Positions 24,667 to 36,497 of a DNA stretch of 40,943 bases are shown here, one piece after another. Made by a program: the position numbers and the translations under genes. Every line of letters starts with the position of its first letter. The first letter of the stretch is position 1. A model generated the notes under the pieces. The model was not told the origin of the DNA. It made no database searches and saw only the letters and a program-made list of their open reading frames with translations. The DNA is from Alphaproteobacteria bacterium (GTDB lineage: Bacteria > Pseudomonadota > Alphaproteobacteria > Rhizobiales > Beijerinckiaceae): the NCBI GenBank assembly GCA_016869595.1, contig VGDT01000027.1, positions 1-40,943 of the forward strand, in the 5' to 3' direction.

Positions 24667-24722
24667 TTGACAGATAAGATGATACATATAATCTTTATCT
24701 TTAGATGGCAATCATCATCTAA
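24667..24722 (+). promoter_or_regulatory. Divergent promoter and TetR operator candidate
   Basis: TTGACA (24667-24672), 16 bases, TAATCT (24689-24694) reading towards the Fe-S/SCP2 gene. Just downstream, TTAGATG (24701-24707) and CATCTAA (24716-24722) form a perfect 7-bp inverted repeat with an 8-base spacer, well placed for a TetR dimer to block transcription. The patch is distinctly AT-rich. Confidence 0.6.
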
Positions 24723-24738
24723 TAATCGGGAGGTTCTG

Positions 24739-26052
24739 ATGAGCATCGCAAATGAAGCGACTCAACTCGTCGCCGCGACAGATCCAAAACCTCTTGATCA
24801 GGATTGGCTGCGTGCGATTGCGCTGGAGGCGGGCGCCGACGATGTCGGCTTCGTGTCGGTGGATCGGGACGAGATCGCGACAGAACGCGAACATATCTTC
24901 AAAGCGCTTCCAGAAGCGCGCACGCTGATAAGCATTGTAACTCGTCTTAACGTCGACAGTTTGCGCAGCCCCCAGCGTTCGATCGGCAATCTTGAATTTC
25001 ATCGCAATTACCATCACGTCAATGAAGTCGCCGCCGCCATCGTATGCGAATTGGCGCGACACAAAATTCGCGCGCTCAATCCTTCGGCCGCCTTTCCGAT
25101 GGAGATGGATAATTATCCAGGACGCATCTGGGTAATCGCCCACAAGCCAGTCGCCATCGCGGCTGGACTCGGCCAGATGGGAATTCATCGCAACGTCATT
25201 CATCCTCAGTTCGGCAGCTTCATAAATATTTCCACCGTGCTTGTCGCCGCCGAAATTGCCTCGGAGAGCCAACCGATTGAGTTCAACCCGTGTTTTCAGT
25301 GCAAGCTATGCGTCGCCGCCTGCCCGGTCGGCGCGATCGCGCCTGATGGCTATTTCAATTTTTCGGCCTGCTTCACTCACAATTATCGGGAGTTCATGGG
25401 CGGGTTTACCGACTGGGTCGAAACGATCGCCGATAGTGGCGGCGCCAGGGCGTTGCGCCGAAAAGTGACTGACGCGGAGCAATCTTCGATGTGGCAGAGT
25501 CTTTCATTCGGCGCCAACTACAAGGCAGCCTATTGTCTGGCCGTCTGTCCCGCAGGGGCAGATCTGATCTCGACCTACACTGCCGACAAAAGCGCATATG
25601 TGAAAAATGTCGTAGAGCCGCTCAGCGGCAAGGAAGAACCGGTCTATGTGGTGTCAGGCTCCGACGCGGAGGATTACGCGCAAAGGCGTTTTCCGCATAA
25701 GCAGCTTCGGCGCGTCGGCGGCGGCTTGCGACCTCGCACCATCAAAGGCCTGCTGGAGGGAATGCCCCTGGTGTTTCAGCGCGGAAAGGCGAAAGCTCTC
25801 AATGCGAGCTTTCACTTTACGTTTACTGGACGCGAAGCGCGGAAAGCAACGATCTCCATTCGCGACAGCAAACTCACCATCATCGACGGTCATGTCGGGA
25901 AGGCCGAAATGTCGGTCACAGCGGACGCGACCGCGTGGCTAGAATTTCTTTACAAGGAGCGAAGTCTGCCACGAATGCTGCTAACGAGAAAACTTCGCAT
26001 CAAAGGCCGCCCGACTCTGCTCCTCGCCTTCGGGAAATGCTTCGCGGTATGA
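24739..26052 (+). CDS. 4Fe-4S ferredoxin-domain protein fused to an SCP2 domain
   Basis: 437 aa; GGGAGG lies six bases before ATG 24739. Residues about 20-300 resemble the catalytic/ferredoxin part of QueG and reductive-dehalogenase-like proteins: VGFVSVDRDEI, NVDSLRSPQRSIGNLEFHRN, AGLGQMGIHRNVIHPQFGSF, then an iron-sulfur motif C185-X2-C188-X2-C191-X3-C195-P (CFQCKLCVAACPVGAI) and more Cys at C211, C266 and C270 (CLAVCPAG). Residues about 335-437 look like an SCP2 sterol/lipid-carrier domain (LEGMPLVFQRGKAKALNASF, FTFTGREARKATISI, ADATAWLEFL). Together this suggests a redox enzyme for a hydrophobic substrate, controlled by the divergent TetR. The substrate is unknown. Confidence 0.85.
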   Translation: MSIANEATQLVAATDPKPLDQDWLRAIALEAGADDVGFVSVDRDEIATEREHIFKALPEARTLISIVTRLNVDSLRSPQRSIGNLEFHRNYHHVNEVAAAIVCELARHKIRALNPSAAFPMEMDNYPGRIWVIAHKPVAIAAGLGQMGIHRNVIHPQFGSFINISTVLVAAEIASESQPIEFNPCFQCKLCVAACPVGAIAPDGYFNFSACFTHNYREFMGGFTDWVETIADSGGARALRRKVTDAEQSSMWQSLSFGANYKAAYCLAVCPAGADLISTYTADKSAYVKNVVEPLSGKEEPVYVVSGSDAEDYAQRRFPHKQLRRVGGGLRPRTIKGLLEGMPLVFQRGKAKALNASFHFTFTGREARKATISIRDSKLTIIDGHVGKAEMSVTADATAWLEFLYKERSLPRMLLTRKLRIKGRPTLLLAFGKCFAV

Positions 26053-31370: not shown

Positions 31371-31462
31371 AGGGGTAAAGCCGGAGCCCTTGCCCCCTGC
31401 AAAGCTGGCTCTAAGTCCCTATTAGGCCTCTAACAATCAGAGGCGTAGTCGTGGAGGAGACC

Positions 31463-31624
31463 ATGATATCCGCCAAGGAACACATGACAATGGCGACTGT
31501 CGGCGCGATCGTCGGCGCCGCATTGGGGGCTGGCATCGGCGGCGCGCTCTTTGGCCTGCCGGGCGCCATGGCCGCCGCGGTGCTGGGGGGCATTGGCGGC
31601 GCCTTCTTTGGGTCGTTTCTCTGA
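31463..31624 (+). CDS. 53-aa glycine-zipper membrane protein
   Basis: MISAKEHMTMATVGAIVGAA, then LGAGIGGALFGLPGAMAAAV and LGGIGGAFFGSFL. Two hydrophobic segments carry repeated GxxxG spacing typical of glycine-zipper helices that pack or oligomerise in membranes. The ribosome site GAGGAG lies four to five bases before the ATG, which supports translation. It is convergent with the STAND gene. Toxin-like or envelope roles are both possible for such peptides; none can be assigned. Confidence 0.65.
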   Translation: MISAKEHMTMATVGAIVGAALGAGIGGALFGLPGAMAAAVLGGIGGAFFGSFL

Positions 31625-31719
31625 TCAAAGAAGCGACGCCGTCGCGCTCATGAGACAATAAGCGCCGCGCGAATTCGAGCGCGGCGCTGGCACGAAACGA
31701 AGTCTATCGTACCTATAGT

Positions 31720-34700
31720 TCATTCGAATCGGTTATTGAACGCGCGGTCTTCTTCTACCTCACGCTTGCGTTCGTCACTAATGCGGGTTTCGAGGTCGGC
31801 TCTTGCCTCTGCCATCTGCGCCGCGAGAGCTGGCGCCTCGCCACCCAGTAGCTGGTCGAGGAGTTTTAGTCGTCCCTCCAGCTCGGTCGCGAGCGAACCG
31901 CTCCAGCTTGATGGATACAGGCGTCGGAGAATTTCCTTCAGGACATGGTTCGGATCGGGTGCTTGCTCGAGGAGCTTCCTCGTGAGCGGCATCCATTCGC
32001 GCGGTTCACGTTCCCCCTTAAACAACGTGGCCACAGCTGCTGCGAGGGGAAAGCGTGTAGCGGGATTGCCGCTACACCATGAAAGAAGAACATCGTCCGG
32101 TACTACATCAATGACGGGATGATGGAAATTCCTGAAGATGCGCTTACTCGCCTTGTGGGATTCAGCATCATCTGAAAACAGAACGTTTAGCGTTGGAATG
32201 GCTTGAACCTGTAAAAGTCCTTTCATGAATTCCCGAAACTTATAGGTGTCGATCTCGTACTTTGTGGCGGCAGCTAGAAATTTTTCGCAAAGTGACTGCG
32301 CCACCGGAATGCCTTCTGGCCCTGCGAGCGAAGCTGCAATGATAACGCCAAGCTCGTGGTCTTCGTCCGTGTTACGCTGAAATGCAAATTTGCCGAGCAC
32401 GATCCGAGCAGCTTCGAGCACTTCGGGCAATGGCTCACGCTTCGCGGCAGCGTCCGAGTAAAATCGCAGCGAGATGATTTCGAGGCCGACGGCGAATCCT
32501 TCTGGCTTACTCACAATTGCGACGACCAAGTCGCGGAACTCGGTTCCCGCAAGCTCGTCGAGGACACGGCCATAAGCGAGACTGCGAAAGGCCTTGATTG
32601 GGGCCTTCTCAAGTTTAAGCGCCCGGTGCAACCGGGCTACTGCGCGTTCATTAACGGGGACATTTGCCTGCAGAATAGGAAACTGTTCGGCGAGAACTAG
32701 GTTTTCCAGTGTTTCGTCAAGGATTGTATCGGCGAGAGCCTCATCACGCTTTTGCAGCCCATTCAGAAAGCCTCCAAGAAGTTGAATGCCCGCCTTTTCA
32801 CTTGATGCAAACTGCGCGACAATCGCATCCCACATCATGCGTGGACTCTCGGCCGCTTCGGCCAGCGCCATGCCGAATATCTCAAGCCTGCCATGGTTGT
32901 TCAACAGCTCAGGCAGCAGCGTCTTGAAGGTCTCATCATCTACTGCCACGTCGTGGCCGAGAGCCTGTATCGTCGCAGCCAAACGTGCAGTTTTCGCTTC
33001 ATAGCGCGCGCCCCAGTCAGGATCGTCTACGTTCTTATCGTCATCAAAATCGTCGAGGTCGTAATTTTCTCTGCCGATGACAAGGCTGCGCACTTTGCTC
33101 GCAAGGTCTTTCGGCCGCAGGAACTCCTCCAGCACCATCAGGCGGTCGCGGAGTTCGGGCGTCATGCTCTTGCCGTCGAACGTGATTGTCTCACGCGTTG
33201 CGATCCAACCGTCGCGCCAGAATGACTTGGCAGCAATCTCACGAGCGACCTGGTCAAGCTCGTCCGCAAAGCCTGCCCTCCACAGGCCCCGGAACTCGCT
33301 AGCGATCGCTTTTCGTACGTCATCCGCCGCCGGGTAAGCCGACAGCGCGAATGATCTCGCCATCCTTAGTGTGGGTTCAAACCAAGCACGTACGTCTGCG
33401 TCGGTCTTCGGATAATAGCCATAGTTGCGCGAGTGAGCACCAAAGTCGAACTCATAGTGCGAGGAAAAGTGGTTCGTTTTCATGAGCGCTCGTAGCGCCT
33501 TGACTCCGAGGGAGCGCACACGTCCTTCAGCAGAGCCAAGTAGTCTTTCGACCTCCTTCGCGCGCACCTCAATCGGCGCATGCGTTCCAGACAGCATGAT
33601 AAAAAAGAGCGACTCAACGACGCCTGCCGCCTCGTCCTCTCTGTAGCGGTCATCAGGAAGCGTCGCAAATTTCACCAGCAGGGCGATGGCACGCTCAAAG
33701 AATGCTGGTTCATAGGCGAGAGAGCGTAAGAGCCGAACGAAGTGAGTGCAGCGGCGCAGCGAGTCTTCATCTGCGCTGGACAAAGCGTTTTCCAACGCCG
33801 CTAGCACTGCCTCCGGCGCCGTGGGAGCGACGTTCGCAAACATCGCTCGGCCCAACTCGTTCAAGTTCGTCACGTCACTAAGCAGACCGCTTGGCGCTAG
33901 CCACCCCTTGACGATGGTTTTGGCGTCGCTGCTATCGTCAAGATAACCGAGGCGTCGCGAGAAAGAGCGAAGAACACGCTCGGAAGCATTATCGACGAGG
34001 ACGGATTTTATTTTTGCGAGCGGAATGTTCTGAAGCGCCATCTTGGCAAGGCGATTCGCAATTGCATGCGGCAGCACCGCGCGCCATTGCGCGCGGGCTT
34101 GCACGAGATCACGCCGCTTAAGCTCTGCGACGCCGGCATAGACATCTTCCGCTGTCTTGCCAATGAGACTACCAAGAACGGGAAGTTCGGCATGATCTCC
34201 TGTAAGAGACTCTCCCTCGAACGAATAGATGAGAGAACAGGACTGTGCAATCGACAGCAGGGATGGGTCAGGATCGTGACGTTGCTGAAAAAGACGCTTG
34301 AAAAGTTCTTCTTCACTCAAGCCCGCTACCGTCTCGGCTTTCTCGATCTGTGAAGCAATGGCCAGCGCAACGCGTGCATTACCTCCGGAAAACTCTGCGA
34401 TCGTCTGTGCATCAACTTGAGAAAGATTAGGATAGCGCCGTGCTACCAGTTTCTCGATTAGCGGAATTGAAGAAGTGTCCAGCGCGAAGACATCAGTGCC
34501 TTCAGGCTGGTCTTCGCGGATATCGTATTCAATGGTGATGACGCTGATAGTTGAGTCCGCTGCTCGCGCCACTTCCGAAAGCCTTCGGTGCAGCTCTGGC
34601 GTGCAATTGTCGACGACGAGGATCGCACGTGTGCGGTTTGCAATTAGGTCCGAAGCGAGACCGGCTGGTGGAGGGTTGGGCTCATCCGCCTCGTTTGTGT

Positions 34701-35514
34701 AGATTGCAAGCGAGGGATCCAGGGCGCCTTCACCGACCGCTGCATCGAACAACGCTTCGGCAAGCCTTGTTTTGCCGACGCCTGACAGACCGACAAGCCG
34801 CGCCACATTACCTGGCGAGCAGAGCACCTTGCGAATACGATTTATGCCCTCGACGGCGGAAACCCCTTCGCCCTCGTCTTCTGCACCCGTGCGAATGCGA
34901 GCTTGCTCATCTGTCAGATAGCTTGCGTCGACACCGGCAGGCGCAAGCGACCACGGGCCATAGGATTGCCAGCCAGGCACCGCCCTACCGATGCGCGCCC
35001 GCACCCACGGAATCAGACCGGCATGATCGCGAACCCACGTCGCAACGCGGTTTCGGTCATAGAAGTCGAGCGCCAATTTTGTTTCGGCGGGCGTGCCTTT
35101 GAGGGCCTCGGCCATCGCATTGCGCCGGTTTTTGAGCGCTGTTTCCGAGGTGGAGCTGCTTGAACTCACAATAATGTATGCGCCACCGGCGTCAGCAAGC
35201 TCGAGAAATATAGGCCGCAAGACACCGGTGGGCTTCGGCTTCATCTCATCGAGGATTTCCCCCCGCGGCATATCGGGTATCTTGACCTGATAGCCGGTTT
35301 GCGGTCTCGGGACGAAGCCGCTTATCGCCGTGCCGGCGGCGAGACTTACACGTACGTCGAGGCCTCCATCTTTTGCGTTTTGATCGCCTCCCCAGGTAAC
35401 AGCGGAAGAGGGGAGGCCGTGTCTGCGCATCTCCGCCTCGCAGAGACGCCCAACCAATGTGCGCAAATCGTCGTCGCCCAAAGCGGCGATGTCGTTACCA
35501 GTAATTTCCAACAT
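31720..35514 (-). CDS. Mrr-like nuclease-STAND NTPase protein (probable Avs-type antiphage defence)
   Basis: 1264 aa in one unbroken frame. Residues 1-180 look like a PD-(D/E)xK nuclease of the Mrr/Cap4 type: helix Glu (E26/E28), WGGDQNAKDGGLDV with D53, and YQVK (Q76, K78). Residues about 220-460 are a P-loop NTPase: Walker A GLSGVGKT (242-249), Walker B AILVVDNC (297-304) and FSGGNARVALAIASQI as in the helical domain of STAND ATPases. The remaining 800 residues are alpha-helical with no motif I can name, the place where STAND proteins sense their trigger. Coding GC is clearly lower than in its neighbours, indicating transfer. Nuclease-STAND-sensor order is that of Avs defence proteins that recognise phage proteins and then cut DNA. 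No ribosome site precedes the ATG. Confidence 0.85.
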   Translation of the reverse strand: MLEITGNDIAALGDDDLRTLVGRLCEAEMRRHGLPSSAVTWGGDQNAKDGGLDVRVSLAAGTAISGFVPRPQTGYQVKIPDMPRGEILDEMKPKPTGVLRPIFLELADAGGAYIIVSSSSSTSETALKNRRNAMAEALKGTPAETKLALDFYDRNRVATWVRDHAGLIPWVRARIGRAVPGWQSYGPWSLAPAGVDASYLTDEQARIRTGAEDEGEGVSAVEGINRIRKVLCSPGNVARLVGLSGVGKTRLAEALFDAAVGEGALDPSLAIYTNEADEPNPPPAGLASDLIANRTRAILVVDNCTPELHRRLSEVARAADSTISVITIEYDIREDQPEGTDVFALDTSSIPLIEKLVARRYPNLSQVDAQTIAEFSGGNARVALAIASQIEKAETVAGLSEEELFKRLFQQRHDPDPSLLSIAQSCSLIYSFEGESLTGDHAELPVLGSLIGKTAEDVYAGVAELKRRDLVQARAQWRAVLPHAIANRLAKMALQNIPLAKIKSVLVDNASERVLRSFSRRLGYLDDSSDAKTIVKGWLAPSGLLSDVTNLNELGRAMFANVAPTAPEAVLAALENALSSADEDSLRRCTHFVRLLRSLAYEPAFFERAIALLVKFATLPDDRYREDEAAGVVESLFFIMLSGTHAPIEVRAKEVERLLGSAEGRVRSLGVKALRALMKTNHFSSHYEFDFGAHSRNYGYYPKTDADVRAWFEPTLRMARSFALSAYPAADDVRKAIASEFRGLWRAGFADELDQVAREIAAKSFWRDGWIATRETITFDGKSMTPELRDRLMVLEEFLRPKDLASKVRSLVIGRENYDLDDFDDDKNVDDPDWGARYEAKTARLAATIQALGHDVAVDDETFKTLLPELLNNHGRLEIFGMALAEAAESPRMMWDAIVAQFASSEKAGIQLLGGFLNGLQKRDEALADTILDETLENLVLAEQFPILQANVPVNERAVARLHRALKLEKAPIKAFRSLAYGRVLDELAGTEFRDLVVAIVSKPEGFAVGLEIISLRFYSDAAAKREPLPEVLEAARIVLGKFAFQRNTDEDHELGVIIAASLAGPEGIPVAQSLCEKFLAAATKYEIDTYKFREFMKGLLQVQAIPTLNVLFSDDAESHKASKRIFRNFHHPVIDVVPDDVLLSWCSGNPATRFPLAAAVATLFKGEREPREWMPLTRKLLEQAPDPNHVLKEILRRLYPSSWSGSLATELEGRLKLLDQLLGGEAPALAAQMAEARADLETRISDERKREVEEDRAFNNRFE

Positions 35515-35567: not shown

Positions 35568-36497
35568 CTACGCCACCTCACTCGACCAGCGTTGCGAGCG
35601 AAAGGCGAGGGCGATCGCCTCGGCGCGGGCGTTCTGACGCGCCTCCGCTGAGCCGTTCTTCTTAACGTCGGCGCAGGCTTTAAGCGCAATCTCCAGCAAC
35701 GCCGCCTTCGGATAGGACTGACCCTCGCGGCCGGCATGCGCGCAGAAATCGCAAGCGCAGACCATCATCAATTCGCGGAAGCGCTCAGGCGCATCAAAAG
35801 CCCCGAGCCGTTCGAGCATCAAAGCGACGGGGCCGGCGCGCATTTTCGTCACGCGATGCACGCGTTCGCATTCGGCAAGCGCCAACAGAGCGAGATCCTT
35901 GCATTCCGCCGGCGCGCCGAAGCGCGTACACATCTCTTCGACGCGCGGGCGCCCGCGCTCGACATGTTTGTAATGAACGGGGAGATGTTCGCGCGGCGAA
36001 TCCGACTTGCCGACATTCATCGCGAGCAGCGCGAAACGCACGGGCAGGGAAGCGCCGCGTCTCGCCGCCGCGTCGAGCGTCTTCATCAGATGTTCGCCGA
36101 GATCGACCTCGGCCTCGCCGTCGGAAATATCCGGCACGCCGAAGAGCGCCGCGACTTCGGGGAGGATTTCAACGAGCGCCCCGCATCCGCGCAGAGTCTT
36201 GATCATCTTCGACGGCGCGGGGCTCATCAGCCCGCGAATAAGCTCCGGCCACATCTGCTTAGGCTCGGCGTCGACGAGATGGCCGGCCTCGACCTGTTCG
36301 AAGAGGAGATCGAGCGTGTCCTCGTCCGGGTCCGCCGCGCCTTCGGCGATCAACGCCGCCATGCGCAGAACGGCGAGGCCGGGATCGGTTTGTCCGAAGT
36401 CGGACAGGAATTCGGGTTCGGAAGCCATGGCGAAGGCGAAAACATGCAAAGGCCTTGCCGCGCGCGCCAGGAGAGACGCGGGACAAAATCCGCTCAC
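35568..36497 (-). CDS. CCA-enzyme-like HD-domain protein with degenerate HD motif
   Basis: 309 aa from a GTG at 36495-36497 with GGAG five bases upstream; an internal Met at 36428 is the alternative. Residues about 70-290 align by eye with the C-terminal half of proteobacterial Cca tRNA nucleotidyltransferase: MWPELIRGLMSPAPSKMIKT, LRGCGALVEILPEVAALFGV, DLGEHLMKTLD, LPVHYKHVERGRPRVEEMC and FRELMMVCACDFCAHAGREG. The nucleotidyltransferase head is missing. Where Cca has ALCHDLGKG, this protein has LLAMNVGKSD, so the HD pair is lost, while other His positions (HYKH) remain. Probably not a phosphohydrolase. Ends 53 bases before the STAND gene on the same strand. Confidence 0.75.
   Translation of the reverse strand: MSGFCPASLLARAARPLHVFAFAMASEPEFLSDFGQTDPGLAVLRMAALIAEGAADPDEDTLDLLFEQVEAGHLVDAEPKQMWPELIRGLMSPAPSKMIKTLRGCGALVEILPEVAALFGVPDISDGEAEVDLGEHLMKTLDAAARRGASLPVRFALLAMNVGKSDSPREHLPVHYKHVERGRPRVEEMCTRFGAPAECKDLALLALAECERVHRVTKMRAGPVALMLERLGAFDAPERFRELMMVCACDFCAHAGREGQSYPKAALLEIALKACADVKKNGSAEARQNARAEAIALAFRSQRWSSEVA

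Follow-up and report, generated by a model that had tools for sequence, protein, structure and literature searches.

An intact open reading frame on the minus strand of the window (the whole stretch of DNA analysed, 40,943 nucleotides of a Beijerinckiaceae contig) encodes what we read, with a probability of roughly 70%, as an NLR-like receptor against phage that consists of one chain and belongs to the PD-Lambda-4_A family; in this receptor, infection would trigger assembly of a STAND oligomer with active nuclease heads. The protein looks akin to the immune receptors of plants and animals. This reading draws on family membership, domain order, the STAND fold, conserved residues, head exchange, sporadic distribution and the defence-rich neighbourhoods of relatives, all of which were computed here. 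The frame starts with ATG, occupies positions 31720..35514 as given in an earlier note made from the sequence alone, and specifies a protein of 1264 aa (Table 1).

PADLOC matched the protein over its full length to PD-Lambda-4_A (988 bits; residues 1-1264 against positions 3-1283 of the 1283-position model), and it is 33% identical end to end with an E. coli protein whose own score with this model is 2532 bits; by its sequence, the window gene is a member of this already known phage-defence family. The earlier description of the system as uncharacterised is therefore overturned by the PADLOC match, the E. coli PD-lambda-4 having been selected and validated against phage. PD-Lambda-4_A models were the only ones matched in PADLOC at E up to 1, with no Avs model among them; NCBIfam and PHROGs searches at E up to 1 returned no match for the protein, the best PDB match by sequence reached only E 0.33, Pfam gave sub-threshold matches only for the whole protein with no nuclease or STAND family at cut-off, and a search of phage records for relatives found nothing useful. 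Vassallo and colleagues obtained 21 systems by selection from E. coli and cloned them, PD-lambda-4 among them (PMC9519451); it is counted here by its family name, and the name was not found in the part of the main text available to us. According to the same part, every one of the 21 cloned systems lowered the plating of its selecting phage. A review table lists PD-lambda-4 under P-loop NTPase (PMC10952713), and its PD(D/E)XK row, in the portion available to us, names other PD systems and not PD-lambda-4. The A protein of E. coli PD-lambda-4 shares with the window protein its domain order, its motif residues and an ending in RFE; the two cases differ in that the window genome has no partner B, the host belongs to another class and two thirds of the residues differ.

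Table 1. Features of the window gene and its surroundings (window positions; residues are those of the 1264-aa protein).
Feature	Position	Strand	Basis
PD-Lambda-4_A-like nuclease-STAND-solenoid protein	31720..35514	-	1264 aa, coordinates include stop; ORF and PADLOC match
Mrr-like PD-(D/E)xK-type nuclease head, residues 1-195	34930..35514	-	Conservation, model, hhalign; assignment moderate
DGGLD, residues 49-53, putative metal-binding acidic motif	35356..35370	-	D49, G51 and D53 100% in 80 rows
QVK, residues 76-78, putative catalytic motif	35281..35289	-	Q76 and K78 100% in 80 rows
STAND NTPase with winged-helix part, residues 215-500 (WRAVLPHAIANRLA)	34015..34872	-	Conservation, model, Foldseek
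Walker A GLSGVGKT, residues 242-249	34768..34791	-	Motif and conservation
Walker B region AILVVDNC, residues 297-304	34603..34626	-	Motif and conservation
HEAT-like alpha-solenoid, presumed sensor, residues 500-1227	31834..34017	-	Conservation, model, Foldseek
Long terminal helix and near-invariant Phe-Glu, residues 1228-1264	31723..31833	-	C-terminus count, conservation, model
Short CCA-adding-enzyme-like (cca-like) gene, window gene directly after	35568..36497	-	NCBIfam, congeners
Segment common to several congeners, other edge of variable site	31384..31690		Congener comparison

The head carries the two motifs quoted in the earlier note, GGLDV and YQVK, at D49-GGL-D53-V and Y75-QV-K78. Across the window protein and 79 aligned relatives (12 of 91 loci were excluded for want of a near-full-length match in one frame or as minus-strand, and no use was made of L017 and L024, each divided between two frames; models were built on 64 of the 80 rows and the tree on 74), D49, D53, Q76 and K78 of the head and G242 and K248 of the STAND core are 100% conserved and D302 is 99% conserved, so that the quoted motifs are not chance. 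When compared by hhalign with 14 Mrr_cat domains from related genomes (12 from the same genus and two from the same order), the head aligned in motif register over 50 columns (score 34.0, probability 65%), its DGGLD and QVK pairing with DGGVD and QAK of one of these proteins (L127), whereas 50 column shuffles scored at most 23.0, the reversed profile 11.4 and the STAND segment 15.2. Mrr-type restriction nucleases (Mrr_cat, PF04471) thus have DGGxD and QxK in register with the window head, which differs from them in being fused to a STAND core; in a Pfam scan of 46 heads, neither Mrr_cat nor any other nuclease family appeared among the matches at E up to 0.1. We take the strand order in the modelled head to fit a restriction-type nuclease topology. 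A Cap4 nuclease profile, built on three Cap4 sequences only, gave no match, and of the proposed Mrr/Cap4-like head it is the Mrr part that the alignment upholds, with moderate support. The head is predicted with moderate confidence to be an Mrr-like PD-(D/E)xK nuclease.

Residues 1-575 were modelled with a pLDDT of 89.3 and a pTM of 0.85. Foldseek matches to this model were led by NRC3, Avs3, a STAND-TPR protein, Apaf-1 and Avs4, with NOD2 and NLRC4 lower among the best 50 rows, and the same list also holds generic AAA+ proteins (ORC, RuvB, FtsH and clamp loaders); the TM-scores by query length were low (0.18-0.36). With Walker A and B motifs, a winged helix and a STAND fold (matches to Apaf-1, NOD2 and NLRC4), the protein has the features of the STAND NTPase superfamily. 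The P-loop STAND core suggested earlier is accordingly retained, its motifs being conserved, the fold recovered by structure prediction and STAND receptors heading the Foldseek list, at low TM-scores. The effector, STAND and repeat-sensor layout of Avs (AVAST) proteins, which had likewise been suggested, is supported by the models and by fold matches with low TM-scores, although a sequence match to Avs is absent: the window protein is Avs-built, yet not Avs by sequence. Solved Avs4 and Avs3 (8dgf and 8dgc; Foldseek E values for the window model 3.2e-7 and 1.1e-7, respectively) share with it an N-terminal nuclease, a central STAND module and a long C-terminal part; their chains are longer (~1540 and ~2030 residues versus 1264 aa), and the C-terminal part of the window protein is apparently HEAT-like, unlike theirs.

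In a model of residues 178-1264 (pLDDT 88, pTM 0.73) the C-terminal part is almost entirely helix. The top Foldseek matches were a STAND-TPR protein, CAND2 and Avs3, followed by karyopherins, SF3B1, cohesin and condensin subunits, all at low TM-scores (0.11-0.25), and we take most of the remaining rows among the 50 matches to be HEAT or ARM solenoids. The earlier note had spoken of about 800 helical residues of unrecognised type; helical they are, but in the models and at these TM-scores the region looks like a HEAT-like alpha-solenoid. Its remark that no clear TPR signature is visible agrees with Pfam, which gave no TPR match even below threshold. Averaged over blocks of 50 residues, conservation is 0.59-0.70 as far as residue 550 and 0.40-0.50 past residue 700; the stretches where the protein is least conserved fall in the solenoid region, as would be expected of a sensor.

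Relatives of the window protein were found in 43 plasmid records, and four whose match omitted the head were inspected for head exchange. A DUF676-type alpha/beta hydrolase forms the head in three of them (Enterobacter roggenkampii, Lelliottia and Vibrio halioticoli); the fourth, from Moraxella, carries another head, nameless in Pfam and nuclease-like by eye. Heads are therefore exchanged on the same core among relatives, matching the effector exchange that is known from STAND defence proteins. A further candidate for head exchange (L054) was rejected, as merely the start of its frame had been lost. On a Moraxella osloensis plasmid (L176:207-9935), a relative whose head differs is part of a run of genes, all on one strand, that show AAA and NACHT matches; the first three genes of the run overlap by a few bases. 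The exchanged heads bear on the idea that the protein directly restricts incoming DNA, in an Mrr-type or anti-plasmid manner, in which case the solenoid would read DNA and not a phage protein. Such a function would suit the Mrr-like head and the DNA-bound condensin structures among the solenoid matches, and, in the part of the selection study available to us, direct immunity came from seven of the 11 systems with DNA-binding or cleavage parts (PMC9519451). An alpha/beta hydrolase on the same core, however, ill fits a dedicated DNA reader and cutter, and the STAND part is similar to protein-sensing receptors; we therefore consider direct restriction unlikely and favour the infection-triggered receptor.

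The last 14 residues are conserved at 0.59, unlike the rest of the protein past residue 700. F1263 and E1264 are identical in all 80 aligned rows, where residues 1151-1250 average less than 0.5. Among the ORFs of 87 relatives (six of 93 ORF pieces were left out), FE forms the exact end in 78 and falls among the last three residues in 84, the exceptions being L060, L003 and L033. The 78 FE-ending ORFs use both codons for Phe, both for Glu and all three stops, indicating that the constraint acts on the protein. The relatives with a different head end in RFE, NFEP, RFEW and RFDW, and two distant relatives end otherwise (FGIY in L033 and LGIF in L177). The model of residues 178-1264 is unsure at this terminus (pLDDT 67 in the last block), and our guess is that the C-terminal FE serves as a latch or docking tag.

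PD-Lambda-4 is defined as a system that requires both A and B. These are the two components named by PADLOC, and in each of the two E. coli loci inspected a gap of 45 bases separates A from the PD-Lambda-4_B region downstream of it, which is annotated as two ORFs (12898-13810 in L116 and in L117). In L116, the locus scanned, these two ORFs correspond to different parts of the B model, which has 303 positions. This arrangement would favour the view that the window copy is the orphan half of a two-gene system, inert without B, and indeed the B component had no match in the window genome, whether adjoining A or elsewhere. Set against it, B stood beside A in none of 50 A-bearing genomes or records, which were picked from the analysed loci rather than at random and nine of which are plasmid records alone; weak B matches (43.4 and 21.2 bits) occurred in two of the 50, on a contig other than that of A. 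The window gene is moreover intact and keeps its conserved motif residues. An inert orphan thus appears improbable, and for the solo receptor that we prefer, B may serve some members as an accessory, or A on its own may act in another way.

The window gene lies between the cca-like gene and an aminotransferase gene, and its GC content (56.6%; GC3 59.4%) is below those of these nearest annotatable genes (64.7% and 65.2%, respectively) and of the whole window (62.1%). The claim that it is lower than that of all neighbours holds for these comparisons but fails against the ORF at 24667-26052, which has the lowest value (55.1%) among the 21 window genes measured. That ORF, judged by eye from its cysteine motifs, encodes an iron-sulphur protein. 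The suggested acquisition of the window gene is supported by its sporadic occurrence in the genus. The cca-like protein matches NCBIfam CCA-adding enzymes only from model position 133; breakage of this gene by an insertion was considered and rejected because a comparably short gene is present in several congeners (289-325 aa in the seven measured). The stretch after it varies within the genus. Directly after the cca-like gene at the same site, L023 carries a 1304-aa TPR-GreABC-PIN protein (L023:4979-8893) whose N-terminus has a weak LmuA-like match (E 1e-4) and whose architecture presumably belongs to defence, and L125 carries a type IIG restriction-modification enzyme (L125:4598-7675; 302 bits). 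In five other congeners, those proteins at the site that were scanned with PADLOC and Pfam were metabolic or had no match (11 chosen proteins of seven congener loci in all). The segment at the other edge of the site occurs at least twice in L023. Within it, the window has a small glycine-rich ORF (31463-31624, 53 aa). A second copy of the region of the cca-like gene, on contig C93 of the genome, has the same four-gene block at 84-86% identity and was set aside, the contig being more probably contamination from a relative.

Matches to the window protein occurred in three of 61 genomes, namely its own, one of another family of the same order with a partial hit, and a congener with a 24% identical relative. 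Two peptide patterns run against a species collection gave 317 stretches, of which 290 were confirmed; the best 80 were kept and belong to Pseudomonadota, Bacillota, Acidobacteriota, Chloroflexota and other phyla. The nearest protein on the tree, from Aestuariivirga, is 69% identical. Phylum labels were clustered on the tree (12 changes, against a minimum of 9 and a shuffled mean of 32), which indicates limited transfer between phyla, more than one change being no proof of transfer. With the Enterobacter mori relative as a DNA query, matches were found in 175 of 5426 complete E. coli genomes (the 15 rows listed cover 42% of the query); a blastn search of E. coli with the E. roggenkampii relative led nowhere.

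The neighbourhoods of relatives were compared with arbitrary stretches of the same 31 genomes (31 control stretches were obtained of 40 requested): 122 ORFs adjoining A hit 183 PADLOC models at 1e-10 (best 2.5e-161), whereas 124 control ORFs hit 51 (best 4.6e-56), the counts being of models rather than proteins, so that one protein may hit many, and mad3 being hit in both sets. RmrA, a type I restriction enzyme, PglX and OloB fell below 1e-100 among the neighbour models listed, 25 models being listed for each set. This enrichment bears out the link to other defence genes, and the gene shows, rather than a wide vertical distribution without such a link, a sporadic one amid defence-rich neighbourhoods. 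STAND proteins include regulators such as MalT, according to the part of a published account available to us (PMC10427625), and a MalT-like regulator of host metabolism with no part in defence is conceivable on that ground; it is, however, very improbable here, as Pfam finds no DNA-binding regulator domain in the window protein, the gene is as sporadic and its relatives' surroundings as rich in defence genes as described, and the family is named after a validated antiphage system.

The defence receptor that we prefer would operate as follows. At rest, the STAND module, presumably ADP-bound, would keep the head inactive with the solenoid alongside. On infection, a phage product would be bound by the solenoid, whereupon the STAND module would exchange nucleotide and form an oligomer; the clustered Mrr-like heads would then be activated to cleave DNA, which would halt the phage and probably the cell too. 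Ligand sensing, oligomerisation, DNA cleavage and cell suicide are extrapolated in this scheme from characterised STAND defence proteins, by analogy with which an abortive-infection receptor is most likely. More tentatively, at somewhat less than even odds, PD-Lambda-4_A may constitute its own class of partner-less single-chain NLRs apart from Avs, with a HEAT-solenoid receptor, exchangeable effectors and an FE latch or docking tag common to effector types and phyla. No mechanism of PD-lambda-4 was found in the literature searched, which was covered only loosely for the absence of B, the hydrolase heads and the FE ending.

Taken together, PD-lambda-4 was known from selection, and the comparison presented here shows what kind of machine it is. 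Its A component is often inherited without B, its heads are exchanged, and its last two residues hardly vary across phyla. Point mutants in laboratory strains would allow each of these points to be tested.
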